Assembly (NCBI GenBank): GCA_027061725.1
Contig: JAMOVG010000275.1
Coordinates: 1-32,024, forward strand
Reading direction: 5' to 3'
Source of the DNA: Desulfobacteraceae bacterium
GTDB taxonomy: Bacteria > Desulfobacterota > Desulfobacteria > Desulfobacterales > JALSRD01
DNA length: 32,024 nt
A program made the position numbers and the translations under genes. The notes below the pieces were generated by a model, which saw only the letters and a program-made list of their open reading frames with translations, was not told where the DNA came from and did no database searches. Each line of letters opens with the position of its first letter. Position 1 is the first letter of the stretch. This document shows positions 10,504 to 28,875 of this stretch, in pieces.

Positions 10504-10507
10504 GTTC

Positions 10508-11389: not shown

Positions 11390-11443
11390 AGGGGCCGCCC
11401 GTTTTCGACTACCGTTCGGTTTATGCGGATTAGGATCTGATTC

Positions 11444-12307: not shown

Positions 12308-12353
12308 CGAGCCGGTTGCGAGTGATGGCGAGCCGGCAGGAGGAGAAGGCAGC

Positions 12354-13559
12354 GTGCACTTGATCACAAGAAACTGGATACAGGTTCTGTTGTCGGCCGG
12401 CATCTTGCTGTTTTGCGGGGCGGGCACGGCATCCACCGGGAATGGAATCATGCCCGATACGGAAAACTGCCTGTTGTGCCACCGTTATCCCGCCATGGGC
12501 CGTTTCGACAAGACCGGCCGCAAGCGGATTTTCTACATCGCCGACGAACTGTTCGCCCGTTCGGTGCATGGAAAACTGCGGTGCAAGAACTGCCACATCG
12601 GTCTGGACCAGATTCCGCATACCAACGTCCGCAAGGTGGACTGTTCCACCAAGTGCCACATCAAAGAGCCTTCCACGGGGCGGGAATTCTCGCACATCAA
12701 CATGGTCAGGAAATATGAAGCCAGCGTGCATGGGCGGGGTGCGGCGGGCGGCTCCAAACCGTTTCCCGAGGACCTGCCGACCTGCAAGTACTGCCACAGC
12801 AATCGCATGTACAATTCGCTGGATGGCCTGTGGGGCAAAAGCGAGGCGTTGTCCAACGAGACATTGGCGAGGTGCGTCGGCTGCCACACCAGGAAGGAGT
12901 GGGCCCGGAATTTTTATTCCCACTTCACCCACCGCATGCGGCGGCGCAGAACGCAGGATGAAGTGGTCAAACTGTGCACCAGCTGCCATGAGGATCAGAA
13001 GAAAATGGCCCGCCACGGCCTGGAGAGCATTTCCACCTACAAGGACACTTTCCACTGGGTGCAGGTAAAATACGGGGTACGCAATGCCCCTGACTGTTTG
13101 AGCTGCCATGTGCCGGTGGGCTATTCCACCCACGACATTCGTCCCCGCACGGATCCGGTTTCGCCCATTCACCTTTCGAACCGTGTCCGCACCTGCAGCA
13201 ACCAGGGCGGCGTCCAGGTGTGCCACCCCGGCGCCACGGCGCAGTTTGCCTCAGGAAGGGTGCATGCATATGGGGTAAAGGCGCAGATACTGGCCGGCGA
13301 AAAAGTGCCGGATGAACAGGAGCCGGAAATGTCGGCCGTCATAAAGCGCGCCGGTATGGACATTTCGGAAAAGGAAGTTTTCCACTACCGGGTGCTGAAG
13401 CTGCTTAAACTCTTCTACAAACTGCTCATCGGCGGGGTGATCTCTTTCATGCTGCTGCACCAGAGTATGCATTTTCTGCGCAGCAGGCGAAAGCCGCACG
13501 GTACGGGCCAGGCATTCAGCGGCAAGCAGGGAGGCAACGACCAGGGGCGTTGCGGATAA
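12354..13559 (+). CDS. Membrane-anchored octahaem-type cytochrome c, module 2
   Basis: 401 aa from GTG 12354, chosen because AGGAGG lies ten bases upstream; the frame is open further up and would overlap the previous gene. It has a signal peptide and six CXXCH (CLLCH, CKNCH, CKYCH, CVGCH, CTSCH, CLSCH). A CX3CH (CSTKCH) sits at the same place as in the module-1 paralogue. A C-terminal CX8CH (C-SNQGGVQV-CH) replaces its CX4CH. One TM helix (about residues 348-365 of the mature part) and a basic tail follow. Alignable blocks with 9448-10503 include C(L)LCH-YP, SVHGRVKC-type and FPEDLP-CK-CH. It precedes a second cytochrome b gene by 26 nt. Same role as module 1, perhaps at another redox potential (inference). 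Confidence 0.87.
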   Translation: MHLITRNWIQVLLSAGILLFCGAGTASTGNGIMPDTENCLLCHRYPAMGRFDKTGRKRIFYIADELFARSVHGKLRCKNCHIGLDQIPHTNVRKVDCSTKCHIKEPSTGREFSHINMVRKYEASVHGRGAAGGSKPFPEDLPTCKYCHSNRMYNSLDGLWGKSEALSNETLARCVGCHTRKEWARNFYSHFTHRMRRRRTQDEVVKLCTSCHEDQKKMARHGLESISTYKDTFHWVQVKYGVRNAPDCLSCHVPVGYSTHDIRPRTDPVSPIHLSNRVRTCSNQGGVQVCHPGATAQFASGRVHAYGVKAQILAGEKVPDEQEPEMSAVIKRAGMDISEKEVFHYRVLKLLKLFYKLLIGGVISFMLLHQSMHFLRSRRKPHGTGQAFSGKQGGNDQGRCG

Positions 13560-13585
13560 CGTCACCACCCTGAGGAGGAACGGAT

Positions 13586-14344
13586 ATGGACAATTCGATT
13601 ACCGCGGTCTCCGGCCGCGATGTGGCGCGGGAAGCGGAGGCGGCCGTGGAGAAACGTTTTTTTGTACGTCTCAACACCGCCGAGAGGGTTCAGCACATGA
13701 CGCTGGTGGTTTGTTTCGTGCTACTGGTCGTCACGGGCTTCATGCTCAAGATTCCGGAAAACCTGGTCAAACCCTTTGGACAGGCCGCCGAAAGCGTGTT
13801 TTATTACCGGAGCCTCCTGCACCGCACGGCCGGGGTCGTGCTGATACTGCTCAGTTTCTGCCACGTCGGTTATCTGCTCCTGACCAGTGCCGGGCGGCGG
13901 TGGCTGCGGGACATGATTCCCGGAAAAAAAGACCTTTTGGACATGCGGGATAACTTCCTCTACTTCACCGGTGCCCGAAGGGAACCGCCTGAGTTCGACC
14001 GCTTCACCTATCAGCAGAAAATGGAATACGGTGCCCTGCTGATGGGCAACACCCTCATGTCCATCACCGGAGTGCTGCTGTGGACCGAGTACCTGTGGAG
14101 CAAATTCCTGGTGGACGTCGCCACTGTCATTCACGGGATGGAGGCTATTCTGGCCTGCCTGGCGATCATCATCTGGCACATGTACGAAATCCATTTCCGG
14201 CCCGGCAGGAGCCCATTGAATCAAATGTGGCTGACCGGCCTGATGGATGAAGAGGAATTCAGGGAAGATCACGCATTGCACTACAAAAAGATCATGTCCG
14301 ACCCGGAACTGAAGAAAATCTACCTGCGAAAAGAGGCGCCATGA
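13586..14344 (+). CDS. Inner-membrane dihaem cytochrome b subunit, module 2
   Basis: 252 aa, four TM helices (about 38-54, 77-99, 148-166, 181-201). His37, His79, His93, His183, His198 and His203 match the six histidines of the module-1 subunit (QHMT, LHRTAG, IWHMYEIHF). It is shorter than the paralogue because it lacks the long C-terminal tail, and it has an extended N-terminus. A strong Shine-Dalgarno (GAGGAGG) precedes the ATG. Its last codons overlap the next start by 4 nt (ATGA), a sign of coupled translation. Function as for module 1: quinol-linked transmembrane electron transfer. Confidence 0.87.
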   Translation: MDNSITAVSGRDVAREAEAAVEKRFFVRLNTAERVQHMTLVVCFVLLVVTGFMLKIPENLVKPFGQAAESVFYYRSLLHRTAGVVLILLSFCHVGYLLLTSAGRRWLRDMIPGKKDLLDMRDNFLYFTGARREPPEFDRFTYQQKMEYGALLMGNTLMSITGVLLWTEYLWSKFLVDVATVIHGMEAILACLAIIIWHMYEIHFRPGRSPLNQMWLTGLMDEEEFREDHALHYKKIMSDPELKKIYLRKEAP

Positions 14345-15132
14345 AAAACCGTTTTTTGCTTCTGGTGGTGAAAGGTCTGCTGGTTTTTCCGCTCCTGCTC
14401 TTCGGGCTGTGGCTTTTGAAGCTGGTCTATTTCCCCGGCTTCGAAGCCAAGAAGGCCGTGGCCATCATCGAGGCCGCCGAGGAGAATATCTTCGACACCA
14501 TCCTGAAAGACAGGCAACCCGTGCCCCGCGGCCATTTTCACCTGGTCGATGAGTTCGTTTCACAACCCGAAGTCAATCCGCCTCTCTGCCTGACGTGTCA
14601 CGGGACGTTTCCCCACAGCAAGGAGAAGAAGGTCCGCTCGCTGCTGAACTTTCACACCGGATTCATCTCCTGTTCCGTCTGCCACGCCCGTCAGAAGCCC
14701 GGCCAAACCGGGGTGACTTTTATGTGGGTCGACCGCCGAACCGGGCAGGTCGTCTCTAAAGTCAAAGGGCAATACGGCAAGTACACCGCCAAGATATTTC
14801 CCATCCGCATTTCCGACTCCGGCGAGCCCCAACGCATATTCCGGCCCATCAGCGACAAGGCCGCCCGGCAGTTCCTGAAACTCAAAGACCAGTTTACCCA
14901 TGACCAGGTCGCCCGGGCCAAGATCAAACTGCACGCCAACATATCGGAAAAACCGGTGTTCTGTTCGGACTGCCACCGCAAAGACGGCTACCTCGACTTT
15001 GCGGCCCTCGGCTTCCCGAAGATGCGCGTGGCGCACCTGGTCTCCACCGAAGTGGTGGGGCTGGTTAACAAATACAGAACGTTCTACATGCCCTCGAAGA
15101 TCGACTTCGGTGCCGAGGGCAGCGTCGAGTAG
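14341..15132 (+). CDS. Trihaem cytochrome c with N-terminal membrane anchor, module 2
   Basis: 263 aa, paralogous to 11444-12307. N-terminal TM helix about 5-27, then a short stalk and three CXXCH motifs (CLTCH, CSVCH, CSDCH). Shared sequence includes GHFHLVD versus GHFHHID, FMWVDRRTG versus FKWYDRTTG, and the tail STEVVGLVNKYRTFYMP. Presumably held on the periplasmic face of the inner membrane as the outlet of module 2. The overlap of 4 nt with the cytochrome b gene supports a stable complex. Confidence 0.83.
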   Translation: MKNRFLLLVVKGLLVFPLLLFGLWLLKLVYFPGFEAKKAVAIIEAAEENIFDTILKDRQPVPRGHFHLVDEFVSQPEVNPPLCLTCHGTFPHSKEKKVRSLLNFHTGFISCSVCHARQKPGQTGVTFMWVDRRTGQVVSKVKGQYGKYTAKIFPIRISDSGEPQRIFRPISDKAARQFLKLKDQFTHDQVARAKIKLHANISEKPVFCSDCHRKDGYLDFAALGFPKMRVAHLVSTEVVGLVNKYRTFYMPSKIDFGAEGSVE

Positions 15133-15147
15133 CCACTGCCTGCAGCC

Positions 15148-16089
15148 ATGAAAATAACAGCGCTTGCCATTCTGCTGACAGTCACAAGTTTCCTGCCGGG
15201 ACTGGTCATCCCGGCGGTTCTGGCTGTGGATGAGGACGGTTGCCTCACCTGCCACCAGTATCCGGGACTGGTTCGCCATGAGCCACAGGACGGCTTCAAG
15301 GTGCTGCACATCGACGAGGCCGCGTACATGCGCTCCGCCCACGGCAGGGTCCGCTGCCGCAAATGCCATGTGGCGGTCGTCAAGGTGCCCCACACGGGCG
15401 CCACCGGCGTCAACTGCAACAGCGGCTGCCACGCCAAGACGGAAAACCCGCAAAAGGTGAAGAACTTCCCCCTGAAGGGTTTCCACAGGAAGGAGCAGTC
15501 GTTTATCACCCGTCTGGACGATGACACCTCCTGCCGCGTCTGTCACCCGCTTTATCCCCACAGCAAGAACAATCGGGTCCGTGCACTGGTCAACATGCAC
15601 ACCGGTTTCATGCTGTGTGAAGTATGCCATCTCAAGCGGGAAAAATTGCCGCATGTCTCCTACGACTGGATTGACTCCGAAAACGTGCAGTTCAGTGGAA
15701 CGCCTTTTGGATCCTATTTCAACCCGCATACGGGGACCGCCCATAAAACCCGGAACTACATCTCCCGCATCGGCCTCTTCATAGAGGCCGGCGGCACCCG
15801 GCAGCTGGTGACGGAGTCGGCCGACACCCGCAAGGCCAGGGAATTTCAGCAGCGGGAAAAGGATTTGAATGACCACCAGCGGAGAGAACAGTTGAAATAT
15901 TTCCACCGGCACATCGAGAAGAAGGAAATCAGCGTGGCCTGCAATGAATGCCACACCGCCAACGGGATGCTCGATTTTCGGCAGCTCGGTTTCGACGACA
16001 AGAAGGCCAATCAGCTGATCAATCTGAACGTAAAAGGCCTGGTGACGAAGTACAAGGTGTTTTACTTTCCCAACCTGTTCGGCAACTGA
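15148..16089 (+). CDS. Chimeric hexahaem-type cytochrome c (octahaem N-half joined to trihaem C-half)
   Basis: 313 aa with a cleavable signal peptide (to about 26) and no TM anchor. The first half matches the start of the octahaem proteins: CLTCHQYPGL, a CRKCH, and then CX3CH (CNSGCH) at the same place. The second half matches the trihaem proteins: PHSKNNRVRALVNMHTGF, then CEVCH, a linker, CNECH, and a tail like VKGLVTKYKVFYFP. In total there are five CXXCH (CLTCH, CRKCH, CRVCH, CEVCH, CNECH) plus one CX3CH. Loss of both anchors suggests a soluble periplasmic shuttle that can dock where the membrane versions interact. Start ATG 15148 lies 15 nt after the module-2 trihaem gene. The fusion interpretation is from direct reading of both halves. 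Confidence 0.83.
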   Translation: MKITALAILLTVTSFLPGLVIPAVLAVDEDGCLTCHQYPGLVRHEPQDGFKVLHIDEAAYMRSAHGRVRCRKCHVAVVKVPHTGATGVNCNSGCHAKTENPQKVKNFPLKGFHRKEQSFITRLDDDTSCRVCHPLYPHSKNNRVRALVNMHTGFMLCEVCHLKREKLPHVSYDWIDSENVQFSGTPFGSYFNPHTGTAHKTRNYISRIGLFIEAGGTRQLVTESADTRKAREFQQREKDLNDHQRREQLKYFHRHIEKKEISVACNECHTANGMLDFRQLGFDDKKANQLINLNVKGLVTKYKVFYFPNLFGN

Positions 16090-16107
16090 GTGCCGCCGGA
16101 ACCCGTT

Positions 16108-17076
16108 ATGAACCTGTCTCTGTCCATCTGCCGCCGTTTTTGTGCCCTGTCGCTGCTCCTGCTCCTGCTGCTGTTCGGCATGGCCCCACCCGCCACCGCC
16201 ATTCGGCTGGTAACGGTGAAGCACCTGTTTGACCTGGCGGACCAGCTCCGGCAGCCCAGCGACGTGGCCGTGTCCGCCGACGGGCGCATTTACGTGGTCG
16301 ACGGCGTAAACAACCGCATCCGCATGTTCGACGCCCAGGGCCGCCCGGCGGGCTCCTTCGGCAAGACCGGTTCCGGACGGGGCGCTTTCGCGTTTCCCCT
16401 GGGGATCGCCCTGGACGGCGCGGGCAGGGTCTACGTGGCCGATTCCGGAAACCACCGCATCCAGATTTTCACCCCCCGCGGCGGCTTCGTAGCGGCCATC
16501 GATGCACCCCCTTCCGAAAAAGGCAAACCCGCAGACCCCACTGACGTGGCGGTCGACGACCGCCGCCGGCGCTGTTACGTGGTGGACAACGACAATCACC
16601 GCATTCTGGTCTACGACCTGAACACGCGCAGGCTGAAAACCACCTATGGAAAGCCGGGTACGGGCAAGCGCAATTTCCGCTATCCTTTTCTCATGGCCCT
16701 GGACCGGGAGCAGTACCTCTACATCGTGGACGTCATCAATACCCGGGTGCAGGTCCTGAATCCGAAAGGGCTCTTCGTCTCCTTTATCGGTGGATGGGGG
16801 GTCGAGAAAGGGGAATTCTTCCGGCCCAAGGGGGTGGCCATCGACAGAGACAACCGCGTCTACGTGAGCGACAGCTACATGGGCGTCATACAGGTTTTCG
16901 ATTCTGCTACTTCCGAGTTCTACGCCGCTGTTGGTGACGCGGAAAAAACCGCGGTGAAAAAATTCAAGACCCCGGTGGGACTGTTCATCGACCACCGCAA
17001 CCGTCTCTATGTGGTCGAGATGTTCGCCGACAGGGTGGGTGTCTACCAGATAGAGGATACGCCCGGGCGGAATTGA
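16108..17076 (+). CDS. Exported NHL-repeat beta-propeller protein
   Basis: 322 aa from ATG 16108; an in-frame GTG at 16090 directly after the previous stop is the alternative. It has a signal peptide with a leucine-rich core ending near PATA and no lipobox cysteine. The rest is about six NHL blades, each with a pattern like QPSDVAVSADGRIYVVDGVNNRI...FDAQG and a Gly-rich turn (GKTGSGRGAF). There are no haem motifs. NHL propellers serve as binding platforms. It sits between cytochrome genes and has lipoprotein relatives at 22180 and 26108, so it probably scaffolds cytochromes in the periplasm or beyond the outer membrane (inference). A catalytic role cannot be excluded. Confidence 0.85.
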   Translation: MNLSLSICRRFCALSLLLLLLLFGMAPPATAIRLVTVKHLFDLADQLRQPSDVAVSADGRIYVVDGVNNRIRMFDAQGRPAGSFGKTGSGRGAFAFPLGIALDGAGRVYVADSGNHRIQIFTPRGGFVAAIDAPPSEKGKPADPTDVAVDDRRRRCYVVDNDNHRILVYDLNTRRLKTTYGKPGTGKRNFRYPFLMALDREQYLYIVDVINTRVQVLNPKGLFVSFIGGWGVEKGEFFRPKGVAIDRDNRVYVSDSYMGVIQVFDSATSEFYAAVGDAEKTAVKKFKTPVGLFIDHRNRLYVVEMFADRVGVYQIEDTPGRN

Positions 17077-17135
17077 GCGTGTTGATTCCCGCTGGCGACA
17101 TCATCACGGCGCAGACCGGCCCATTGCTGCGGCCG

Positions 17136-20100
17136 ATGACTCCAGGTCTTCACGACGGGCGGGCCTCCCGGGGAAAAGCGCTGGCATTCGTTTTTCTGCT
17201 GGTGCTGCTGTCGTTGCTGCTCCCGTCCGGCGCCCCGGCCACGGTGCCTCCCCCCCGGAACCCCAATTCCGCCAAGTCCTGCGCTATCTGCCACTACCGC
17301 TGGATCGACACCTTTTTTACCGAGGGTCGCGGGACCGAGCTGGTGGCCTACCATGCCGAGAAAGTCGCGGCTACGCCAGAGATGTGCATGTCCTGTCACG
17401 ACGGCAGCGTCGTGGATTCCCGCAAACGAATGGGCAGCGGCGCAGGGCACAAGACCAACGTGTCCCCGCCGGCCGGCATGAAGATACCGGATATTTTTCC
17501 GCTGGACGAAAACGGCCGGGTGCAATGCGCCACCTGCCACACGGCCCACGGGGTGCCCAGCGGGCCGGATTCCCACGAGACCATCTTCATGCGGACCTCC
17601 AACCGGGATTCGAACATGTGCCGCATGTGCCATGCGGACAAGACCGGCGGCCCGTCGGCCGGCAACCACTCCATGGGTAGCGTCGAAAAGGGCTTTCCCC
17701 GGCAGCTTGCCGCCGGTTACGGCAAGCCCGGTGTACAGAAAAACCAGGTGATCTGCGAGAGCTGCCACACGGCCCACGGGTCTTCTCAAAAAAGCTTTCT
17801 GGTGAACCCCACGGGTCGCTCCCAGCTGTGTCTGGCCTGTCACCGCGACAAGCGCAGCTTTACGGCCGACGGACGCAAAACCCCTGCGCATATAGTGAAC
17901 GTGGTCCCCGTCAAGGCCAGGATCCCGGCGGCGGTGATTGAACGCGGGGCCCGGCTGGGGGACGCGGGTGCGCTGATCTGCCAGACCTGCCACAAGGTCC
18001 ACGACAACGATATTGAAAAGCCGTTGCTGGTGATCGCCAGGGACCGCAAGTCCGGTTTCTGCCTCACCTGTCACCCCGACAAGCAGTCCATTGCCGACAC
18101 CCGGCACAACCTGGCGCACTCGGCACCGGACGAAAAAAACCTGGCGGGCCAGACCGTGGCCCAGGCCGGTGTGTGCTCGGCATGTCATCTGCCCCACAAA
18201 GCCGCCCGCAAGCTGGCCGGGAAAAAAAAGGACTACACCAGTCGGCTGTGCCTCAGTTGCCACGCCAAGGGACGGGTGGCCGGAAAGGTCAACCTGAGCG
18301 GCGAAACCCACCCCCTGGACGTTGATCCTTTTAAAAAAGGAGGGACGCCCGGCAGGCCCACGGCGGTGGACACCACCCGCAATGAGCTGAAGCTTCCGCT
18401 TTTCGACCGCTCGGGAGTGCAGGACAAGAATGGCAAAATGACCTGCGCCACCTGCCACGACACCCACCGCCCGGCAACCGCCCCGGCCGAGAAAACCGGC
18501 CCCGGGGGGGCCATGCGGTCGACGTTTTTTCTCAGGAAACCCCAACCCGGGATCTGCCGGCAGTGCCACCGGAGCAAATTCAACATCGCAGGCTCGCGGC
18601 ACGATCTGGCCAAAAGCGCCCCAAACGCCCGCAACATCCTCAACCAGCAACCGGCCCAGGCGGGGCTATGCGGCAGCTGCCACCTGGTGCACGGATCCCG
18701 CAGGGGGTTTCTGTGGGCACGGCGTACGGGGGGCGGGGGCGGTGTCGTGCAGAGCCTGTGTTTTTCCTGCCACAACGAAAAGGGCATTGCCCGCAAAAAG
18801 GTTCACCACGGCTATTCCCACCCCATGAACATCCGGCCGGCCGGCACGGGGATTAAGGTTCGCGGCCTGCCCCTGTTCGACAAGAAGGGCAAATTCCGGC
18901 CCAACGGGCGCATCACCTGTCCCACCTGCCATGACCCCCACCAGTGGCGGCCGCCCGCCGAACGTACCCAAAGCGGTCGGCGGGCCGGCAAGAGCCACGT
19001 GGCCTTTACCTCCTTCCTGCGCCGACAGTCGCCGGATATCTGTCGGGCCTGCCATGCCGACAAGTTCTTCATCAAAGGGTCCAAACACGACCTGGGCTGC
19101 GTGGCCCCCGGCTCCCGCAACATCGCCGGACAGACACCGGCGGAGTCGGGGGTGTGCGCCGCCTGCCACCTGGTGCACAACGCCCAGAGAGATTTTCTAT
19201 GGGCCCGCAGGATCGAACCCGGTCGCGCCACGGCCGGGGAAGCGCTGTGCGTTGGCTGCCATCGGCCGCAGGGCCTGGCCTCCGACAAGGTTATCGGCGG
19301 CCGATCCCACCCCCTGAATGTTTCTCCCGCCGGCAGGGGATTGGACACCACACTGCCCCTTTACGGTGAACACGGCGGTCCGATTCAAAACGGGGTCGTG
19401 TCCTGTCCCACCTGCCACGACCCCCATCGCTGGACCCCCCGCCGGCGGGCGGGAAAAAACCTCCTGAAAACCGAAGGCGATGCGCGCAACAGTTTCCTGC
19501 GGCTGGAAAACGCCCCGGTCCCACTGCTGTGCACCAATTGCCACCGGCGGCAGGCCGTGGTGCAAAAGACCGACCACGACCTGCTGGCCGCGGGCGCAAC
19601 GGCCACCAACGATGCCGGCCAGACACCGGTGCAGTCCGGCACCTGTGGGGTGTGCCATCTGGTCCACAACGGCCGACAGCCGGTCCGTCTCTGGGCCCGG
19701 GAGCTGACCGGGCAAGGGCCCGTAATGGACCGTCTGTGCAACTCCTGCCACACGAAGGGCGGTCCGGCCGGGAAAAAGATCCCCGCCATCGCCTCCCACC
19801 CGTCAACCGCCATCGTCGACGTGGGCAAAGGCTTGCGCGCCCAGGCCGGGCACCTGCCGCTCTTCGACGGGGCTTCCGGAAAACCGGTGCGCGTCGGGAA
19901 CCTTTCGTGCCCCTCCTGCCACAATGCGCACCGGTGGAAACAGGGGGCACCCGCGGCCGCTGCGGGACAAGAGGTCGAGGGCGACGCCACCAACAGTTTT
20001 CTCAGAAGCCGGGCCCGCGACACCCTTTGCAAGGACTGCCACGGCCCGGACGCCCTCTTTCGCTACAAGTTTTTTCACAAACCCGGTGCGCGCCTGGCCC

Positions 20101-20159
20101 GGCAGAACCGCCCGAGGGAGCCTTCTTTCAGGACATTCCGGCCCGCCCGCAAACCGTAG
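17136..20159 (+). CDS. Giant 24-haem c-type cytochrome of repeated tetrahaem modules
   Basis: 1,007 aa from ATG 17136, which gives a normal signal peptide (basic region then ALAFVFLLVLL). TTG 17073 or GTG 17079, overlapping the previous stop, are alternatives. I count 24 CXXCH motifs and none with odd spacing. They fall into six groups of four. The last four groups are clear repeats of about 163 residues with the order: AQAG(x)C..CHLVH, C..CH, SHP, LPLFD, CPTCHDPHxW, FLR, IC..CH and HDLA. There is no TM helix or lipobox after the signal peptide, and the tail is basic. A string of regularly spaced haems suits a long molecular wire bridging periplasm and outer membrane or lying outside the cell; location is not decided by the sequence. 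It ends operon A. Confidence 0.88.
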   Translation: MTPGLHDGRASRGKALAFVFLLVLLSLLLPSGAPATVPPPRNPNSAKSCAICHYRWIDTFFTEGRGTELVAYHAEKVAATPEMCMSCHDGSVVDSRKRMGSGAGHKTNVSPPAGMKIPDIFPLDENGRVQCATCHTAHGVPSGPDSHETIFMRTSNRDSNMCRMCHADKTGGPSAGNHSMGSVEKGFPRQLAAGYGKPGVQKNQVICESCHTAHGSSQKSFLVNPTGRSQLCLACHRDKRSFTADGRKTPAHIVNVVPVKARIPAAVIERGARLGDAGALICQTCHKVHDNDIEKPLLVIARDRKSGFCLTCHPDKQSIADTRHNLAHSAPDEKNLAGQTVAQAGVCSACHLPHKAARKLAGKKKDYTSRLCLSCHAKGRVAGKVNLSGETHPLDVDPFKKGGTPGRPTAVDTTRNELKLPLFDRSGVQDKNGKMTCATCHDTHRPATAPAEKTGPGGAMRSTFFLRKPQPGICRQCHRSKFNIAGSRHDLAKSAPNARNILNQQPAQAGLCGSCHLVHGSRRGFLWARRTGGGGGVVQSLCFSCHNEKGIARKKVHHGYSHPMNIRPAGTGIKVRGLPLFDKKGKFRPNGRITCPTCHDPHQWRPPAERTQSGRRAGKSHVAFTSFLRRQSPDICRACHADKFFIKGSKHDLGCVAPGSRNIAGQTPAESGVCAACHLVHNAQRDFLWARRIEPGRATAGEALCVGCHRPQGLASDKVIGGRSHPLNVSPAGRGLDTTLPLYGEHGGPIQNGVVSCPTCHDPHRWTPRRRAGKNLLKTEGDARNSFLRLENAPVPLLCTNCHRRQAVVQKTDHDLLAAGATATNDAGQTPVQSGTCGVCHLVHNGRQPVRLWARELTGQGPVMDRLCNSCHTKGGPAGKKIPAIASHPSTAIVDVGKGLRAQAGHLPLFDGASGKPVRVGNLSCPSCHNAHRWKQGAPAAAAGQEVEGDATNSFLRSRARDTLCKDCHGPDALFRYKFFHKPGARLARQNRPREPSFRTFRPARKP
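18174..20159 (+). repeat. Four tandem coding repeats (~163 codons each) in the 24-haem cytochrome
   Basis: The first cysteine codon of the motif C..CHL(V/P)H recurs at 18174, 18669, 19155 and 19644, spacings of 495, 486 and 489 nt. Each unit carries four haem motifs in constant order. The two units upstream (17278-18173) are more diverged. Growth by unequal crossover of a tetrahaem unit is the simplest reading. Confidence 0.75.
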
Positions 20160-20458: not shown

Positions 20459-20474
20459 TGGCATAAGTGTTGCA
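20459..20474 (+). promoter_or_regulatory. sigma54 (-24/-12) promoter of operon B
   Basis: TGGCAT (20459-20464), AAGTG, TTGCA (20470-20474). GG (20460-20461) and GC (20472-20473) are exactly ten bases apart, and only the last base of the -24 block departs from TGGCAC-N5-TTGCA. Transcription should start near 20485, a few bases before the riboswitch's first helix at 20491. That agreement of two independent signals strengthens both. Confidence 0.8.
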
Positions 20475-20490
20475 TTTTCAATAACCGCTA

Positions 20491-20597
20491 TCGAGGCGAT
20501 ATCCAGCGCCAAAGCCAAACCCCGGGCGACCGGGGGACGGAAAGCCACGGGTCTTCCGACGTGACTGCGTTCACAGAAGACAGCCGGGTTGCCGCGA
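20491..20597 (+). promoter_or_regulatory. GEMM-I cyclic dinucleotide riboswitch aptamer
   Basis: Elements of the GEMM-I aptamer appear in order. P1 is 20491-20499 paired with 20589-20597 (eight pairs including one G-U, with one A/G mismatch). The junction AAAGCCAAACC follows. P2 is CCCCGG-GCGA-CCGGGG (20520-20535) with a GNRA tetraloop. Next is the conserved GGACGGAAAGCC. P3 is closed by GTCTTC (20551-20556) and GAAGAC (20576-20581), with the receptor-like CCACGGG and CAGCCGGGTTGCC. By alignment to the Vc2 aptamer, the ligand-contacting position 20 is G (20514), which favours c-di-GMP; the 3',3'-cGAMP class (GEMM-Ib) usually has A there. Some G20 variants are promiscuous, so specificity is provisional. 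It controls the small cytochrome operon. Confidence 0.85.
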
Positions 20598-20623
20598 AAA
20601 CAGGAGGGCGACCCGGCTTTTTT
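20582..20623 (+). terminator. Riboswitch-controlled intrinsic terminator
   Basis: AGCCGGGTTGCC (20582-20593) pairs with GGGCGACCCGGCT (20606-20618), a 12-bp stem with one G-U, followed by six T (20618-20623). Its left arm is also the 3' strand of the aptamer. Ligand binding should hold that strand in the aptamer and prevent the terminator, so the switch is predicted to be ON with ligand. The next gene starts 145 nt downstream. Confidence 0.85.
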
Positions 20624-20768: not shown

Positions 20769-21386
20769 ATGAAAAAGGTATCCATTGTACTGATGATCCT
20801 GGCCCTGACGGCCCTGTTGTCCGGCGTCTCCATGGCGGAGATCACCGGCAGCGACCACGATTTCAGCGGCAGTGGCTGGTCCGGCGGAGAAATCTGCAAG
20901 CCCTGCCATACGCCGCACCATGCGGACACCACGGTGGCCGGCGCCCCTCTGTGGAACCACGAGGTGACCACATCCACGTTTACCCTCTACAGCAGTTTGA
21001 CCCTGGATGCCACTGACCTGGGACAGCCCGACGGCGTGTCCAAGCTGTGTCTTTCCTGCCACGACGGTACGGTGGCTATTGATTCCTTCGGCGGTGCCAC
21101 GGGTTCCACGATGATCTCCGGCGACGCGCTTATCGGCACGGACCTGTCGGACGACCACCCGATCTCGTTCACCTACGACGATGCACTGGCAACCACCGAC
21201 GGCGGACTGCACCCGCCCTCAACGGCGACGACTTCCCTGGGCGGCACCATCCAGGATGACCTCCTTTTCGGCAACAAGGTGGAGTGCTCGTCCTGCCACG
21301 ACGTGCACAATTCGCACAACAACGAAAAGCTTTTGAATATCGCCAATGCTTCTTCGGCGCTGTGCCTGACCTGTCACAACAAGTAA
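20769..21386 (+). CDS. Small exported tetrahaem cytochrome c, possible filament subunit
   Basis: 205 aa with a signal peptide (cleaved near residue 23, SMA) and four CXXCH: CKPCH, CLSCH, CSSCH, CLTCH. AAGGAG lies eight bases before the ATG. Haem-poor, Gly/Ser/Thr/Asp-rich stretches separate the motifs, and the DLSDDHP segment carries a free histidine. Size, haem number and layout (C..CHTPHHAD, then CLSCHDGTVAIDSFGG) recall the OmcE-type tetrahaem cytochromes that polymerise into extracellular nanowires in Geobacter; I recall this from memory and cannot align it here. First gene after the riboswitch, so it should be the product most tightly tied to second-messenger level. A paralogue follows at 21465. 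Confidence 0.85.
   Translation: MKKVSIVLMILALTALLSGVSMAEITGSDHDFSGSGWSGGEICKPCHTPHHADTTVAGAPLWNHEVTTSTFTLYSSLTLDATDLGQPDGVSKLCLSCHDGTVAIDSFGGATGSTMISGDALIGTDLSDDHPISFTYDDALATTDGGLHPPSTATTSLGGTIQDDLLFGNKVECSSCHDVHNSHNNEKLLNIANASSALCLTCHNK
20874..20930 (+). repeat. Near-identical 57-bp coding block shared by the two small cytochrome genes (copy 1)
   Basis: Positions 20874-20930 and 21633-21689 match at 55 of 57 bases. Both cover the codons from GWSGGEICKPCH to HHAD. The identity extends to synonymous sites, which indicates recent duplication or gene conversion. Confidence 0.7.
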
Positions 21387-21464: not shown

Positions 21465-22139
21465 ATGGCTGCGATAAAAACAGACGCTTCCAGCCGGCGC
21501 ATGCGGGTCGGCGGCCTGCCGTCGATCGTGCCCGGGTGGGCGCTGATCCTGATGATCGCCTGCTGGTTGATCGTAACGGCACCCCCTGTCCAGGCGCAGA
21601 TTGCAGGCAGCCCCCACGATTTTTCCAGCCAGGGCTGGTCCGGCGGAGAAATCTGCAAGCCCTGCCATACCCCGCACCATGCCGACACCGCGGTGGCCGC
21701 AGCGCCCCTGTGGAACCACGAGGTGACCACGGCCACCTACACCCTTTACAGCAGTCCCACCATGGACGTGAACGTGGAGCAGCCCGGAGAAATCTCCAAG
21801 CTGTGCCTGTCCTGTCACGACGGCACGGTGGCCATGGACTCTTTCGGCGGCAGCACCGGCAGCATGTTCATGACGGGCCCAGCCGTGGTCGGCGAGGGGC
21901 TGGATCTGTCCGACGATCACCCCGTGGGCATTTACTGGAACCACCAGACCGTGTCCGGGTGCGGAACCTGCCACTACACGCACGGCGATCCCTACTCGTA
22001 CAGGGTGCGCTTCTACGAGCGCCGGGTGGAGTGTGCATCCTGCCACGATCCCCACAACAACGGTGCCGAGGAGAGCGGGATGCTGCGGGTCAGTATGGCC
22101 GGCTCTGAGCTCTGCCTGGAGTGCCATACCGATAAATAG
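21465..22139 (+). CDS. Small exported pentahaem cytochrome c, paralogue of the preceding gene
   Basis: 224 aa from ATG 21465, preceded by AAGGAGG; the frame is open upstream, but the Shine-Dalgarno decides the start. A long N-region leads to a signal peptide ending PVQA. Five CXXCH: CKPCH, CLSCH, CGTCH, CASCH, CLECH. The N-terminal half is almost the same as in the previous protein (GWSGGEICKPCHTPHHAD, APLWNHEVTT, CLSCHDGTVAMDSFGG). The extra CGTCH replaces the Gly/Ser-rich loop before the third motif. Downstream of a terminator, it is probably made in smaller amounts, which would suit a cap, initiator or linker for the tetrahaem protein (inference). Confidence 0.85.
   Translation: MAAIKTDASSRRMRVGGLPSIVPGWALILMIACWLIVTAPPVQAQIAGSPHDFSSQGWSGGEICKPCHTPHHADTAVAAAPLWNHEVTTATYTLYSSPTMDVNVEQPGEISKLCLSCHDGTVAMDSFGGSTGSMFMTGPAVVGEGLDLSDDHPVGIYWNHQTVSGCGTCHYTHGDPYSYRVRFYERRVECASCHDPHNNGAEESGMLRVSMAGSELCLECHTDK
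21633..21689 (+). repeat. Near-identical 57-bp coding block (copy 2)
   Basis: The second copy of the block at 20874-20930, differing at only two positions. It spans the first haem motif of the pentahaem protein. Confidence 0.7.
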
Positions 22140-22179: not shown

Positions 22180-23304
22180 ATGAAAAAATGCGCTATTCTG
22201 CTCCTGTGTCTGCTGCTCCTGTCCGGCTGTGCCAGCGCCCCTTCTGAGAAGAGAAAAACCGTCCTGTTTTACCCGCCCCTGCCCCAATCGCCGCGGCTGC
22301 AGTTTCTCACCACCATTACCGGCGAGGCGGATCTGGGCCGCGAACAGAGCGCTTTGGAGACGTTTCTTCTGGGGCCCCCCGAATCCCTGAAAACCATCGG
22401 CAAGGCCTATGACATCGCTGCGGTCAAGGGCCGCATCTACGTACTGGACCGAACCGCCCGCAAACTGCTCATTCTGAACCTGGCGGAGCGTCGTTTCGAC
22501 TACCTCAGGGACGAGCGCCTGGGGACCCTCAGCGACCCTTCGGGCATCTGGGTGTCGGACGATGACGTCAAGTACATCGCCGACATGCAGCGCAAACAGG
22601 TGGTGGTCTTCGGCCGCGACAACCGTTTCGTGCGGGCATACGGGGGCAAAGATCTCTTCGACAAGCCGGTGGACGTGGCGGTCTTCGGGGACACCGTCTA
22701 CGTGTGCGACATGAACAAGCACCAGGTGCTGGCCCTGGACCGCGGGAGCGGGCGGCTCAAGCGGACCATCGGTGAACTGGGCAGCGGCAAGGGCCAGTTT
22801 TACCGGCCCTCCCATGTGACCGTGGACCGCGACGGCAACCTTTTCGTCAACGATGCCTTTAATTTTCGCATCCAGAAGTTCGACCCGCAGGGCACGCTGG
22901 TGCGCACTTTCGGCCGGATAGGGGACAACCTGGGGGCCTTCGCCCGACCCAAGGGCATTGCCGTGGATCGCCAGGGTTACCTTTACGTGGTGGACGCCGC
23001 CTTTGAAAACGTCCAGATTTTCGACAGCCGCTCCGGGCAGTTGATGCTCTTTTTCGGAGGTGCCGGAACTACCCCCGGGAGCATGTACCTGCCCGCCGGC
23101 ATCCACATCGATTACGACAACGTGGATTTTTTCCGGCGCTTTGCCGACAAGGACTTCCGGCTGGAATACGTCCTCTACGTGGGGAATTATTTCGGACCCA
23201 ACAGGCTGAACGTTTACGGGTTCGGAAAATGGGTGGGTCAGCCGCTGCCCGCCACCCCAAACGCCGCAGGTGAGCCGCAACGTGAAGCCCCCAAGGCGGA
23301 ATAG
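22180..23304 (+). CDS. NHL-repeat beta-propeller lipoprotein 1
   Basis: 374 aa from ATG 22180 (GGAAAGGG upstream). Lipoprotein signal with lipobox LLSGC, so Cys17 is the likely lipidated residue. A Pro-rich linker (PPLPQSP) is followed by about six NHL blades with repeated motifs such as KGIAVDRQGYLYVVDAAFENVQIF, and a Pro/Glu-rich tail. The order of features matches the lipoprotein at 26108 (PPLP, R(L/I)(Q/R)F, a hydrophobic helix, then blades). Ser at +2 is compatible with outer-membrane sorting. In the Geobacter osc cluster a beta-propeller protein (OscD) is reported to maintain OmcS nanowire morphology. A similar role here, holding the small cytochromes at the surface, is inference. Confidence 0.87.
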   Translation: MKKCAILLLCLLLLSGCASAPSEKRKTVLFYPPLPQSPRLQFLTTITGEADLGREQSALETFLLGPPESLKTIGKAYDIAAVKGRIYVLDRTARKLLILNLAERRFDYLRDERLGTLSDPSGIWVSDDDVKYIADMQRKQVVVFGRDNRFVRAYGGKDLFDKPVDVAVFGDTVYVCDMNKHQVLALDRGSGRLKRTIGELGSGKGQFYRPSHVTVDRDGNLFVNDAFNFRIQKFDPQGTLVRTFGRIGDNLGAFARPKGIAVDRQGYLYVVDAAFENVQIFDSRSGQLMLFFGGAGTTPGSMYLPAGIHIDYDNVDFFRRFADKDFRLEYVLYVGNYFGPNRLNVYGFGKWVGQPLPATPNAAGEPQREAPKAE

Positions 23305-24106
23305 GATTCTGCCCGTGCTGGCGGCCGTGTCGGTCGTACTCATCTGCGGGTGCGATCGCCAAGCCCGGCACCGGTGGCTGACGTTTTTTTTCACCGGCGT
23401 GCCGCCCCTGGAAGCGTCCAGGGCCAGCGGGACGGACGGGAAAAAAGAGGACTCCAACCGGCCGGGAACACAGCCCGCGGGAGGGGCGGTCCCTGCAGTG
23501 GTGTTATACGCCCATCCCCTGTACGCGGCCCGGAGGTGCGAGGCCTGTCACGCCACATCGGCCGCTCTCGGCCCCCAGGCCTCCAGCGGCAGGGGCTCTT
23601 CCCGCATCTTGGGCGGCACTTCGGCCGCCTCGCCGGCCAGGCTGCGAATGCCCGTCCGAAAATTGTGCGCCGGTTGCCATGAGGACAAATCCGAGGCCGC
23701 GGCCTCCGCCAGGGGATTGTGGCTGCACACCCCGGCGGCCAAGGGCAAGTGCCTGGCCTGCCACGCTCCCCATCAGAGCCGATATCCCCATGTCCTGACC
23801 AAACCGCCGGAGCGGCAGTGTGCCGTGTGCCACATGAAAGACGTTGTGGCCAACCCCGCTTCCCATAAGGCGGTCAAGCGAATGTCGAACAATTGCCTGC
23901 AGTGCCACAACCCCCATGCGGGACGCGACAGGAAAATGCTGACGGCCGATTACCGGGAGGCGCTTCGGCCCGTGGGGACTACACCGGCTGCCGTTCGGCA
24001 GGGGCTTCGCCGGCAGAGCGGCAGCCAGGGCAAGGATGTCTGTTATCCGCTGGAATCCCCAGGCGATCCGTCTGACAAAGGGTGGGGGAACATGGTTGAA
24101 GATTGA
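23282..24106 (+). CDS. Pentahaem cytochrome c, probable outer-membrane lipoprotein
   Basis: 274 aa from GTG 23282, chosen for AGGTGA eight bases before it; GTG 23270 is the alternative. It overlaps the preceding gene by 23 nt. The N-terminal hydrophobic stretch ends VVLICGC, an imperfect lipobox (Cys at -2). A Ser/Gly/Pro-rich linker follows, then five CXXCH in doubled pairs: CEACH, CAGCH, CLACH, CAVCH, CLQCH, several followed by PH. The C-terminal about 45 residues have no haem. Its position directly before the beta-barrel gene, with a TGATG overlap, suggests it is the cytochrome partner of that barrel, like OmaB/MtrA-type conduit subunits in function though not evidently in sequence. If lipidated it may face either side of the outer membrane. 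Confidence 0.8.
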   Translation: MKPPRRNRILPVLAAVSVVLICGCDRQARHRWLTFFFTGVPPLEASRASGTDGKKEDSNRPGTQPAGGAVPAVVLYAHPLYAARRCEACHATSAALGPQASSGRGSSRILGGTSAASPARLRMPVRKLCAGCHEDKSEAAASARGLWLHTPAAKGKCLACHAPHQSRYPHVLTKPPERQCAVCHMKDVVANPASHKAVKRMSNNCLQCHNPHAGRDRKMLTADYREALRPVGTTPAAVRQGLRRQSGSQGKDVCYPLESPGDPSDKGWGNMVED

Positions 24107-26073
24107 TGGCTTGCAAGAGGAAATGCGTGAAAGATCCCGGCCTCCTGTTGATGTGCGCCCTGATTTTCGCCCTCATGACACCGGAGCATGCCTGGGCGGC
24201 CCGGTTTTTCATGGAGCGGCCCAAGCTGGGGCTGGGCATTTCCTACGAATTCTGGTCCGAAACGATCACGGGGCCGGATATCCGAACCGACAACACCTCC
24301 CAGGAGCTGCGCCCGGTGCTCGATATCCGCACCAGGGGGTGGGTCTATCACCCGGCTTTCATGCAGTACAAGCTCGGCTTCCAGCCCGCCTTGAGCTGGC
24401 ACGACGAAAGCTATAACCAGACCACCGGTTCCGACCTGAATCCCTTTCTGCCGGCTTATTTTGCGGATTTCACCTTTCTGCCCGTAAAGCCTTACACCCT
24501 GCACCTCTACGGCAAGCGATACGACGACATCGTCACCAGCGCCTTTGCCGCCCAGACTGAAACCACCACCGAGAGCTACGGCGGCGACCTGTACCTGAAA
24601 TACCGGGTGCTGCCCACCACCTTCAGCTACAGCCGCACGCGCATCGACCAGACGGGTTTTTTCGATTCCGTCGAGGATCGCGACGATTTCCGCATCACCA
24701 CGCGCCACCATAAGGGCCGCAGTGACACGCAGGCCTATACGATTTACAGCGACTCCGACCGCGTCAGCAACAGCATTCCCACGCGGGTGAAAACGTCCAA
24801 CTCCGAGATTCGCAACTTCTTCGATTTCACCGGCAAAAGGCAGGTCATGCTCAACTCTTTTCTGACCTACCGCTGGTCGCAGCAGAACGGCCTGGACACG
24901 TCCGGCTTGAGGTGGCTGGAGCAGCTCAACTGGCGGCACAGGAAGAATTTCTGGTCCAACTACCGGTTGGGCTACAACCAGCAGAGCTCCGGCGACTTCG
25001 ACCGCCGCACGCTTTTTGCCAATGCCGGCCTGGAGCATCTGCTTTATGAGAATCTGACCACCCGGCTCAACGGGGGGGCCGAGCTGAGCGATTTTACCGG
25101 GGGCGGTGAGGATGTTTACGACGCCAACCTCGATTTCCGGTACCGGCGCCCGATTCCCTGGGGCTGGTTCAACCTGCACGCGGGCTGGACCAACACCGCC
25201 ACCTTCCGCAGCGGCGGCGGCCAGGTTCCCGTCCAGGTCGTGGACGAGCCGCACGTGCTGTCCACCGGCGTTGTCACCTTCCTGGACCACAACAACGTGG
25301 CGACCGACTCCATCGTGGTCACCAACGTGGCCGGGTCGGTGGTGTATGTCGAGAATGTCGACTACACCATCACCCGCGTGGATTATTCCGTGCAGATCAG
25401 CCGCACCATCGTCGGCGACATCACCGACGGCCAGACGGTGCTGGTCAGCTACCGCTACCTCAGTGATTCCGACTTCAATGACAATATTTTCGGCCAGACT
25501 TACGGCATCGATTTTATGCTGTGGTCCTCCCTGCGCCTTTATTACAGCTACAGCCGGGCCAGCCAGCAGATTCTGTCGGGCACGGTTCTCACGGCCAACC
25601 GGGTGAACGACTCGCGCCACCGGGCCGAAGTGCGCTACGATCTGGGGTGGACCGACACCCAGCTGACATTCGACGACACCAGTCGCGAATCCGGAGCTTC
25701 CACCCGCGCCTGGCGGGCCAAGCAGACTTTTGTGGTCCGGCCGTTTCGGCGCATGTACTGCAGGCTGTCGGGATATTACGGTCAGACGGCTTTCGACGAC
25801 CGTGACGATACCCAGCAGCTTTACGGTATGCGGACCGACCTGACCCTGGCGCTGACGCGCTGGAGCCGCCTGCGCATGGAGGCCTACCGGGACACCATCA
25901 CGGGCGCCGGCCAGGACACCGTCAACACGGTATTTACCGCTTCAGTGGACCTTTCCTACCGCATCTGGCGGGGTACCATCTTTTATCAGTACACGGATGT
26001 GGACAACCAGTTCGTCGAGCAGCGGCGCACGACCCACAACCTGTTTGTGGAGATCATACGGTTGCGCTGGTGA
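24106..26073 (+). CDS. Outer-membrane beta-barrel, likely porin of a porin-cytochrome conduit
   Basis: 655 aa from ATG 24106, which overlaps the previous stop by one base (TGATG). The signal peptide ends near HAWA. The mature protein is made of alternating hydrophobic/polar strands rich in Tyr, Trp, Arg and Asp, without haem motifs, and ends LRW with an aromatic C-terminus typical of BAM substrates. I estimate about 20 or more strands but cannot count them exactly. A low-aromatic segment near residues 370-450 (PVQVVDEPHVLSTGVVTFLD and onward) reads as an inserted beta-sandwich. It probably sheaths a haem chain through the outer membrane or acts as the exit channel for the small cytochromes, comparable to OmbB/MtrB or the channel-like OscEFG. 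Which of the two cannot be decided here. Confidence 0.83.
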   Translation: MACKRKCVKDPGLLLMCALIFALMTPEHAWAARFFMERPKLGLGISYEFWSETITGPDIRTDNTSQELRPVLDIRTRGWVYHPAFMQYKLGFQPALSWHDESYNQTTGSDLNPFLPAYFADFTFLPVKPYTLHLYGKRYDDIVTSAFAAQTETTTESYGGDLYLKYRVLPTTFSYSRTRIDQTGFFDSVEDRDDFRITTRHHKGRSDTQAYTIYSDSDRVSNSIPTRVKTSNSEIRNFFDFTGKRQVMLNSFLTYRWSQQNGLDTSGLRWLEQLNWRHRKNFWSNYRLGYNQQSSGDFDRRTLFANAGLEHLLYENLTTRLNGGAELSDFTGGGEDVYDANLDFRYRRPIPWGWFNLHAGWTNTATFRSGGGQVPVQVVDEPHVLSTGVVTFLDHNNVATDSIVVTNVAGSVVYVENVDYTITRVDYSVQISRTIVGDITDGQTVLVSYRYLSDSDFNDNIFGQTYGIDFMLWSSLRLYYSYSRASQQILSGTVLTANRVNDSRHRAEVRYDLGWTDTQLTFDDTSRESGASTRAWRAKQTFVVRPFRRMYCRLSGYYGQTAFDDRDDTQQLYGMRTDLTLALTRWSRLRMEAYRDTITGAGQDTVNTVFTASVDLSYRIWRGTIFYQYTDVDNQFVEQRRTTHNLFVEIIRLRW

Positions 26074-26107: not shown

Positions 26108-27148
26108 ATGAGAGCCGCAAAATGCATTAACCTGGCCTTGTTGGCGGTGATGCTGCTGACGGCCGGCTGCATCGGGGGCGGGGATGCGGTGCGGCCCCCG
26201 CTGCCGGAAATCGCCTGGCCGCCGCCGCCGGAGACGGCCCGCATTCGCTTTGTCAACGCCGTGACCCGGCCCCGGGATCTCGATATCGCTGAGGGGGCCC
26301 TGCGGAAATTCGTCCGTTACTTTCTCGGGGAATCCGAAAAACGTCTTGTGGCGCCTTACGGTGTGGCCGCCGATGCGGCGGGAAGGCTTTACGTGGTGGA
26401 CACTTATCTGAAAACGGTGCACGTGTTCGACAGCCAGGCCGGCGAACATTACACCTTTGTCCCCCCCAAACGGGCTTTCCAATCACCGGTGGGCATCGCC
26501 GTCGACGGCCGGCGCGGTTTCATCTATGTGACCGACTCCCAGCAGGGCGTGGTCAAGATTTTCACCCGCAGGGGCAGGGCGTATGTCGGGGAGATCGGTG
26601 AAGGGTTTCTGGAAAGGCCCACGGGCATTGCGGTCAGCCAGGCCGCCTCTGAACTTCTGGTGGTGGACACACTGAGCGCCAACGTCGTGCGGTACGCCCT
26701 GGGCGACCACCGTCTCAAAGGGGGCTTCGGCGGCACGGGTTCCGGGAAGGGCCGCTTCCGCTATCCCACCAATATCTGGGTAACCCCCGAAGGCCGTATA
26801 ATCGTCAGCGACTCGCTCAATTTCCGGGTACAGATTTTTTCCCCCAGTGGAAGCTATCTCAACAGCTTCGGAAGCCTGGGCAACGCGCCGGGCTACTTTT
26901 CGCGGCCCAAGGGGGTCGCCGCGGACAGCGACGGCAATATTTACGTGGTCGATGCCCTGTTCGACAACATTCAGGTTTTCGACCGAAATGGCCGATTGCT
27001 CATGGCATGGGGCGGCCCCGGGCACGGCTATGGGCGTTTTTGGCTGCCCAGCGGGATATTCATCGACAGCCGCGACCGCATCTATGTGGCGGACACCTAC
27101 AACAGGCGGGTGCAAGTATTTCAGTATCTCAAGGGAGAATCGAGATGA
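26108..27148 (+). CDS. NHL-repeat beta-propeller lipoprotein 2
   Basis: 346 aa. Lipobox LLTAGC (lipidated Cys21), a Gly- and Pro-rich linker, a short conserved region, then about six NHL blades (for example KGVAADSDGNIYVVDALFDNIQVFD). It is a close paralogue of 22180-23304: a nearly identical blade near the C-terminus (RPKG(I/V)A, YVVDA, NIQ/NVQ) and the shared SGKGxFxxP turn. It lies 34 nt after the barrel gene and shares a 4-nt ATGA overlap with the dodecahaem gene, so all four products are probably made together. Probably an outer-membrane scaffold. Two lipidated propellers flanking one barrel suggest a layered complex (inference). Confidence 0.87.
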   Translation: MRAAKCINLALLAVMLLTAGCIGGGDAVRPPLPEIAWPPPPETARIRFVNAVTRPRDLDIAEGALRKFVRYFLGESEKRLVAPYGVAADAAGRLYVVDTYLKTVHVFDSQAGEHYTFVPPKRAFQSPVGIAVDGRRGFIYVTDSQQGVVKIFTRRGRAYVGEIGEGFLERPTGIAVSQAASELLVVDTLSANVVRYALGDHRLKGGFGGTGSGKGRFRYPTNIWVTPEGRIIVSDSLNFRVQIFSPSGSYLNSFGSLGNAPGYFSRPKGVAADSDGNIYVVDALFDNIQVFDRNGRLLMAWGGPGHGYGRFWLPSGIFIDSRDRIYVADTYNRRVQVFQYLKGESR

Positions 27149-28875
27149 AGAACGCATTCAAGCCGCTGTTGCCGCTGTTGCTGGTGGTGTGCCTGGGCGC
27201 ACCACCGGTGTACGGGGGCAGTATTTTCACCACCCGGCACAACCTTTCGACCAGCGGCCCGGGTGAAATAAAAGCCTCCGGAGAGGACCGGGTCTGTATT
27301 TTCTGCCACACGCCCCACAGGGCGGTCAAGCGGATCCCCTACCTGTGGAATCGCAGCGATTCAACCGCGCGCTACACGCCTTATCAGAGTTCGACGCTTT
27401 TTGCCGCGGTGGGGCAGCCCACGGGCGCATCCAAGATGTGCCTGAGCTGCCACGACGGAACCATCGCCCTCGGGGCGGTGGTCTCCGAACCGCGGGAAAT
27501 TGCCTTCATCGGCGGAATCCGGTTCCTGCCGGCCGACCGTCCCAGTTACCTGGGCACCGACCTTACCAACGACCACCCCGTATCGTTCGTGTACGACACC
27601 AGCCTGGCACAGCGCAGGGGAGAGCTGGCAGACCCGGGGCAGCTGCCCTCGCAAATAAGGCTGGACGCCGGCCAGCAACTCCAATGCACGGCCTGCCACG
27701 ACCCACACGATGACACGTACGGCAAATTTCTGGTCATGTCCAACAAGTACTCGGACCTTTGTACTTCCTGCCACGAGCGCATCGGCTGGGCCGCCAGCAG
27801 CCACGCCACCTCCAGTGCCGGATGGAACGGCCAGGGGCCGGACCCCTGGCCGAACACCGACTACGCCACAGTGGCCGAGAACGGCTGCCAGAACTGCCAC
27901 AGGTCCCACGGGGGAGACAGTCCCCAGTGGCTTTTGAAACACCGGTTCGAGGAGGACAACTGCCTGGTATGCCACAACGGAAACGTCTCTTCGCGCAATA
28001 TCGAGGCGGAACTTCTCAAGGCCTATGTCCATCCGGTGCAGGAAAGTGTCGGGGTGCACGACCCGACCGAAGACTATCAGCTGGGAAGCGTGCCCAAACA
28101 CGTGGAGTGCACCGACTGCCACAACGCACACCGTATCGGGGACGATGCTTCCACCGGTGCACCGGCGGTGTCCGGGGCCAACCGGGGTGTCTCCGGCATC
28201 GATATCGCCGGGCAGCAGGTGGCGCAGTCACAGAATCTGTACCAGATCTGCTTCAAGTGCCATGCCGACAACAACGTGGTTACTTCCTTTGACATCACCC
28301 GGCAGATCGACCAGCTCAACACCCGCCTGGAGTTCGACCCGGGCAATCCCTCCTTTCACCCGGTGGCCGCCCCCGGCGTGAATCCGGATGTGCCCAGCCT
28401 GATATCCCCGCTGACCACCAACAGCATGATCTACTGCACCGACTGCCACAACAGCGACGACCCGGCAGGGCCGCAGGGACCGCACGGATCGAATTTCAAA
28501 CCCCTGCTCTCGGACAACTACGACACCACCGATTACGCCAATGAAAGCGCGTTCAACTACGCCCTGTGCTACAAGTGCCACAGCCGCGACAGCATCTTGG
28601 GCGACGAGAGCTTTTCGGAACACCGTCGGCACATCGTCAAGGAGAGGGCGCCCTGCTCCGCCTGCCATGATGCCCACGGCATCAGCCAGACCCAGGGCAA
28701 TGCCACCAACAACAGCCACCTCATCAACTTCGATCTGACCATCGTTTCCAGGGGGCCGATGGGCCGACTGGAATTTGTCGACACCGGCAGGTTCAGCGGG
28801 CAGTGTTTCCTGTCCTGCCACCGCAAAGGCCACGGCGGCAACAGTACTTACCCGCGCGGCGGGGGAGGCATGTAA
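27145..28875 (+). CDS. Exported dodecahaem-type cytochrome c
   Basis: 576 aa from ATG 27145 (AAGGGA upstream, overlap of 4 nt with the previous gene). The signal peptide ends near VYG. Eleven CXXCH (CIFCH, CLSCH, CTACH, CTSCH, CQNCH, CLVCH, CTDCH, CFKCH, CTDCH, CYKCH, CSACH) plus a final CX3CH (CFLSCH). The first third resembles the small cytochromes at 20769 and 21465: CHTPH, PYLWNRS, YxxYxSS, SKMCLSCHDGTIAL, TNDHPVSF, CHDPHDD. It therefore looks like an enlarged member of the same family, and could be a base, cap or surface terminal reductase for a filament. The C-terminus is Gly-rich, with no lipobox or TM helix. Confidence 0.87.
   Translation: MKNAFKPLLPLLLVVCLGAPPVYGGSIFTTRHNLSTSGPGEIKASGEDRVCIFCHTPHRAVKRIPYLWNRSDSTARYTPYQSSTLFAAVGQPTGASKMCLSCHDGTIALGAVVSEPREIAFIGGIRFLPADRPSYLGTDLTNDHPVSFVYDTSLAQRRGELADPGQLPSQIRLDAGQQLQCTACHDPHDDTYGKFLVMSNKYSDLCTSCHERIGWAASSHATSSAGWNGQGPDPWPNTDYATVAENGCQNCHRSHGGDSPQWLLKHRFEEDNCLVCHNGNVSSRNIEAELLKAYVHPVQESVGVHDPTEDYQLGSVPKHVECTDCHNAHRIGDDASTGAPAVSGANRGVSGIDIAGQQVAQSQNLYQICFKCHADNNVVTSFDITRQIDQLNTRLEFDPGNPSFHPVAAPGVNPDVPSLISPLTTNSMIYCTDCHNSDDPAGPQGPHGSNFKPLLSDNYDTTDYANESAFNYALCYKCHSRDSILGDESFSEHRRHIVKERAPCSACHDAHGISQTQGNATNNSHLINFDLTIVSRGPMGRLEFVDTGRFSGQCFLSCHRKGHGGNSTYPRGGGGM

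Follow-up and report, generated by a model that had tools for sequence, protein, structure and literature searches.

Promoters that depend on sigma54 are tight because an activated ATPase is required, and in Geobacter sulfurreducens the RpoN regulon links sigma54 promoters to pili and extracellular electron transfer. The RpoN consensus of this species is TTGGCACGGTTTTTGCT, and no mention of GEMM riboswitches was found in the paper on its RpoN regulon (PMC2725144). The c-di-GMP-I riboswitches (Rfam RF01051 and RF03167) are 5′ leader elements with overlapping terminators, and in Geobacter the GEMM-Ib riboswitches of the pgcA, pilM and omcAHG leaders control extracellular cytochromes. Among the cytochrome systems closest to the one described below are the OmcE nanowires (PDB 7tfs), the OetABI conduits, and the ANME-partner operon of syntrophic sulfate reducers, which comprises a propeller, large cytochromes and a peptidyl-prolyl isomerase (PMC10553843, PMC5539420); the terms riboswitch and sigma-54 are absent from PMC10553843, which does not describe regulation.

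Here we analysed a 32,024-nucleotide stretch of DNA (hereafter the window) from the order Desulfobacterales and found a sigma54 box, a c-di-GMP-I aptamer and an overlapping terminator in front of operon B, an eight-gene cytochrome, propeller and barrel operon with an OmcE-type gene first (Table 1). The order was assigned through a locus of a genome belonging to it, which matches Desulfatitalea sp. BRH_c12 identically over 3,049 bp; this record came from a pattern scan of genome contigs whose listed hits were mostly due to chance. Judging from the sequence, the region quite probably controls, in two stages, an OmcE-led operon for outer-membrane electron transfer, with sigma54 initiation followed by a c-di-GMP ON riboswitch. 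The region resembles the c-di-GMP-I riboswitches in aptamer sequence and structure, 5′ leader position and overlapping terminator; unlike them, it would be transcribed from a sigma54 promoter. With the Geobacter GEMM-Ib leaders it shares the GEMM-I fold, the ON layout and the predicted control of extracellular cytochromes, whereas it differs from them in its G, not A, at the specificity position, its sigma54 promoter, and a host from a different order. Each element is already known; their combination, sigma54 initiation followed by c-di-GMP attenuation, is apparently undescribed, and no published description of sigma54 promoters coupled to riboswitches was found in the openly accessible literature that was searched.

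Table 1. Positions of the regulatory elements and genes within the window
Feature	Position	Strand	Basis or description
Membrane-bound sigma54 activator	4703..7639	+	two TM segments, PAS, AAA+ with GAFTGA, Fis-type HTH
Second sigma54 element, before operon A, without riboswitch	7971..7986	+	CGGCACACCATTTGCT; orthologous operon A has one too
Operon A	8055..20159	+	receiver-like protein, multihaem cytochromes, cytochrome b561 proteins, NHL propeller, 24-haem cytochrome
Sigma54 -24/-12 element of operon B	20459..20474	+	sequence; TGGCATAAGTGTTGCA; near-consensus
c-di-GMP-I (GEMM-I) riboswitch aptamer	20505..20597	+	RF03167, RF01051; core G20, C21-G46 pair, A47, C92
Intrinsic terminator	20582..20623	+	12-bp stem (5′ arm is the aptamer 3′ strand), then T6
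B1, OmcE-type tetrahaem cytochrome, putative filament subunit	20769..21386	+	phmmer, 4 CXXCH
B2, second OmcE-like multihaem cytochrome	21465..22139	+	5 CXXCH
B3, NHL beta-propeller lipoprotein	22180..23304	+	
B4, pentahaem cytochrome lipoprotein	23270..24106	+	
B5, putative outer-membrane beta-barrel	24103..26073	+	porin of porin-cytochrome conduit
B6, NHL beta-propeller lipoprotein	26108..27148	+	
B7, undecahaem cytochrome	27145..28875	+	OmcE-like N-terminal part
B8, heptahaem cytochrome	28962..30359	+	start codon uncertain

An earlier note on this DNA had read the region as a -24/-12 promoter with exact GG-N10-GC spacing, a GEMM-I aptamer, and a 12-bp terminator stem plus T6 that shares the last aptamer strand, all in front of a putative nanowire operon. 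This reading held up. The box TGGCATAAGTGTTGCA has its GG at 20460-20461 and its GC at 20472-20473, a spacing of exactly GG-N10-GC, and agrees with the sigma54 consensus context TGGCAC-N5-TTGCW at 10 of 12 positions. By cmscan, the aptamer scored 62.6 bits against the classical c-di-GMP-I model RF01051 (gathering 35; clan CL00126). The terminator arms at 20582-20593 (AGCCGGGTTGCC) and 20607-20618 (GGCGACCCGGCT) form 12 pairs, one of them G-U, and the best solved match of B1 was OmcE 7tfs_A (phmmer, E 4.4e-25, full length).

The aptamer and its ligand

The window aptamer, the sole GEMM-I aptamer found in the host genome (4.07 Mb, 97.6% complete), scored higher with RF03167 (c-di-GMP-I-GGC; 68.6 bits, gathering 59, E 2.1e-14); it carries A47 against G47 in the RF03167 consensus, so the higher score does not imply a typical member of that subtype. 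Its core was assigned manually from the cmscan alignment in the numbering of Vibrio Vc2, and G20, A47 and C92 are the core nucleotides of c-di-GMP binders; the C21-G46 pair is also a feature of the Geobacter GEMM-Ib structure. The window aptamer has G at position 20, as does every one of the 112 Desulfobacterales aptamers that were parsed, whereas GEMM-Ib (cGAMP) aptamers, including those of Geobacter, are defined by A at this position. The hint in the earlier note at a GEMM-Ib riboswitch was therefore not borne out, cGAMP was set aside as first-choice ligand on G20, and because of this nucleotide, here and in the relatives, the ligand is most likely c-di-GMP.

It is unlikely, in our judgement, that the same architecture senses 3′,3′-cGAMP instead, as GEMM-Ib riboswitches do at many Geobacter cytochrome genes. 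Extracellular cytochromes of Geobacter are indeed controlled by cGAMP riboswitches (PMC6456294), the study of the pilM and Cd1 riboswitches treats G20 as a selectivity factor, not as a hard filter (PMC9262584), and a single GGDEF protein of the host carries Ser at the Hypr position (GGDEF, not GGEEF). Against this stand the uniform G20 and the remaining GGDEF repertoire, in which four of six matches are canonical and one was not parsed, while the single Hypr-like protein lacks the conserved nearby Asn. This protein (L290; G000:C274:2036-2506, + strand) has a PAS-like N-terminal part, Ser replacing the canonical Asp (GHLEGS), and Val where the conserved Asn is expected; as Ser and GGDEF are the Hypr signature pair, it may be a cGAMP synthase or else a degenerate enzyme. 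We take its Ser, in the canonical Asp position, to be the counterpart of S347 of the Geobacter cGAMP synthase GacA. S347 is among the GacA residues that have been mutated (PMC6456294).

The sigma54 box and its coupling to c-di-GMP-I aptamers

The box TGGCATAAGTGTTGCA is one of five sites in the window that score 10/12 (both strands) and the only one of them directly upstream of a riboswitch. It predicts a transcription start at about 20484-20485, and the Rfam aptamer begins about 20 nt past this point, not six bases as had been claimed for the first helix; a GGCG/CGCC helix near 20495-20510 in the MFE fold, which is outside the Rfam model, is probably what the earlier note took as the first aptamer helix. 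RpoN is encoded in the host genome (C248), as is the GAFTGA activator. A shared-word search upstream of the sigma54 boxes found no activator binding site; it returned one common 10-mer, TGGACAGAAA, and otherwise short words at chance level.

A competing explanation is that the box matches by chance and that operon B owes its expression to read-through out of operon A or to an unrecognised sigma70 promoter, with the riboswitch as its sole regulator. The bare GG-N10-GC motif occurs 504 times within the window, and operon A ends 300 bp upstream of the operon B control region in the same direction, with no + strand terminator between the two operons in a simple scan. However, sigma70-type matches within 100 bp before the aptamer reached 5/12 at best, the orthologous locus has kept the box, and sigma54 boxes are strongly enriched at this position throughout the order. 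This explanation is therefore very unlikely, and read-through, which may contribute, would still cross the riboswitch.

The enrichment was measured on 113 c-di-GMP-I aptamers sampled in Desulfobacterales by covariance score alone, with the promoter ignored. A sigma54 box of at least 10/12 lies within 75 bp upstream of 27 of the 113, which are not independent since some share one genome or genus, against 0.04 expected per shuffle set; about a quarter of the sampled c-di-GMP-I leaders of the order thus carry one. No box was found at -300 to -225 (0/111), on the reverse strand (0), or before the cobalamin riboswitches of the order (0/30). The boxes carry a wider sigma54 signature, with C and A after GG, TT before GC, and A/T after GC, which is partly a product of the scoring used for selection. 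A strict promoter-plus-core pattern gave 57 matches in 49 of 389 genomes of the order (32 genera), a raw count that includes false positives, as 14 of 30 among the matches listed were above Rfam gathering; the reversed pattern gave 5 matches and a scrambled box 0. Phylum-wide, a longer pattern gave at least 23 matches in 15 of 297 genomes (control 0), and the loci of both patterns are phylogenetically non-independent, which leaves the Fisher values as rough guidance. Collectively, these comparisons argue that the stack of sigma54 box and aptamer is not a matter of chance. The earlier note knew of no locus with exactly this stack; we found it at tens of loci at least, in the order and beyond.

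The other genes behind the stack mostly encode secreted FN3, PKD and FG-GAP proteins, a PEP-CTERM protein, and PocR-type sensors, and among the loci examined, cytochromes follow it only in the window and in one genome of another family (G127). A GEMM riboswitch is known to control an FN3 gene in Geobacter (PMC2996986). In Desulfatitalea and relatives (L169-L174), PocR-domain sensor proteins are encoded behind the stack, so the regulator gene may itself be under two-key control. Outside the order, genomes of family f80 (L296-L301, L311-L315; G617, G596, G524, G432, G637, G574) contain up to four stacks of sigma54 box and c-di-GMP-I aptamer each.

Terminator overlap and the proposed two-stage control

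The terminator has a G+C-rich stem followed by a U tract and folds at -25.6 kcal/mol (z -5.1 versus shuffles). The 3′ strand of the aptamer doubles as the 5′ arm of this stem, so aptamer and terminator are mutually exclusive and overlap in the manner of an ON switch. The pilM riboswitch of Geobacter follows the same strand logic; there, the ligand favours read-through and the switch is ON (PMC9262584). An OFF switch, or a riboswitch acting on translation instead of termination, is highly improbable here, given that the terminator uses the aptamer's own strand and is excluded by the bound aptamer and that the B1 start codon lies 171 nt past the aptamer, even though Cd1 and some other c-di-GMP-I riboswitches are OFF switches (PMC9262584) and 12 of 30 sigma54-linked aptamers came without a terminator in a simple scan.

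From the observed elements, their overlap, their conserved arrangement and the statistical coupling, we infer how an ON switch behind a sigma54 promoter would work. In the first stage, sigma54 RNA polymerase would start near 20485 only once a signal had activated an enhancer-binding protein, for which the linked membrane sensor at 4703-7639 is the most likely candidate; in the second, the nascent leader would fold the c-di-GMP-I aptamer. With c-di-GMP bound, the aptamer 3′ strand would be held, the terminator blocked and operon B read, whereas without ligand this strand would pair downstream and transcription would stop near 20623. Operon B would depend on an external cue coinciding with high c-di-GMP, and operon A on the sigma54 cue alone; any read-through from operon A would also cross the riboswitch, which would place the c-di-GMP key on every operon B transcript. 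The promoter, aptamer, overlapping terminator, conservation, RpoN and linked GAFTGA activator make a two-key AND gate the natural and well-supported reading. The activator has its GAFTGA motif at residue 746 and a weak dCache match between its two TM segments; since it appears to be membrane-bound with an extracytoplasmic dCache-like sensor, it may sense the external cue directly, without a separate kinase.

It seems fairly likely that joining a sigma54 promoter to a c-di-GMP-I riboswitch, an external-signal key followed by a lifestyle key, is a design without a name so far that is widespread in Desulfobacterota and that serves in this locus as an AND gate on electron export. Attenuation by the riboswitch would be a second, chemically independent test on top of the sigma54 promoter, and the order-wide coupling would bring external sensing and c-di-GMP together in the control of surface proteins. 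Here, the coupling would reach wires and conduits that conduct electrons, of the sort suggested to let sulfate reducers and methane-oxidising archaea exchange electrons, and it yields an easily tested prediction of when cells build wires. The stack would also be a ready two-input engineering part.

Orthologous clusters and operon gene content

In G127, the same cluster is present in nearly identical order, including the stack and the OmcE gene: a receiver-like protein, cytochromes and the 24-haem protein are followed by the box TGGCATATTAGTTGCT and an RF03167 aptamer (62.8 bits), then B1 to B8 (33-56% identity), a HAMP protein, the isomerase, and at the end of the cluster a homologue of the activator (59% identical), while gene A9 has been moved and inverted. 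Alignment with the window showed that box and aptamer are conserved and that the linker length differs. Separate sigma54 boxes precede operon A and the isomerase in G127, and the riboswitch is found at operon B only. The terminator stem is present there with a poor U tract (TTCCATTT), so the switch mechanism of G127 may differ from that of the window. Another genome, G028, contains the cluster with neither an aptamer nor a strong sigma54 box before the OmcE gene, and the stack is thus a regulatory option, not a requirement; the contigs of G091 and G136 start inside the operon. Operon A of the window opens, directly behind its sigma54 box, with a diverged receiver-domain protein (8055-8420) that has 57% identity in G127.

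B1 is assigned to the OmcE type by its full-length homology and four CXXCH motifs, and its filament formation is putative; unlike OmcE, it shares one operon with propellers and a barrel. The window resembles the OetABI conduits and the ANME-partner operon in its clustering of cytochromes, beta-propeller, predicted barrel, isomerase and nanowire-type cytochrome, a likeness at the level of gene content. The predicted barrel, B5, had no Pfam match; orthologues occur in four other genomes of the order, and a search for further copies in the family of G127 added none. Its structure model is all-beta at low confidence (mean pLDDT 52), and the PDB matches of this model (MtrB at rank 43, 27 Å rmsd) were discounted at that pLDDT. 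On the - strand at 31042-31974, a gene for a SurA-type peptidyl-prolyl isomerase adjoins the cytochromes, as in the ANME-partner operon of sulfate reducers.
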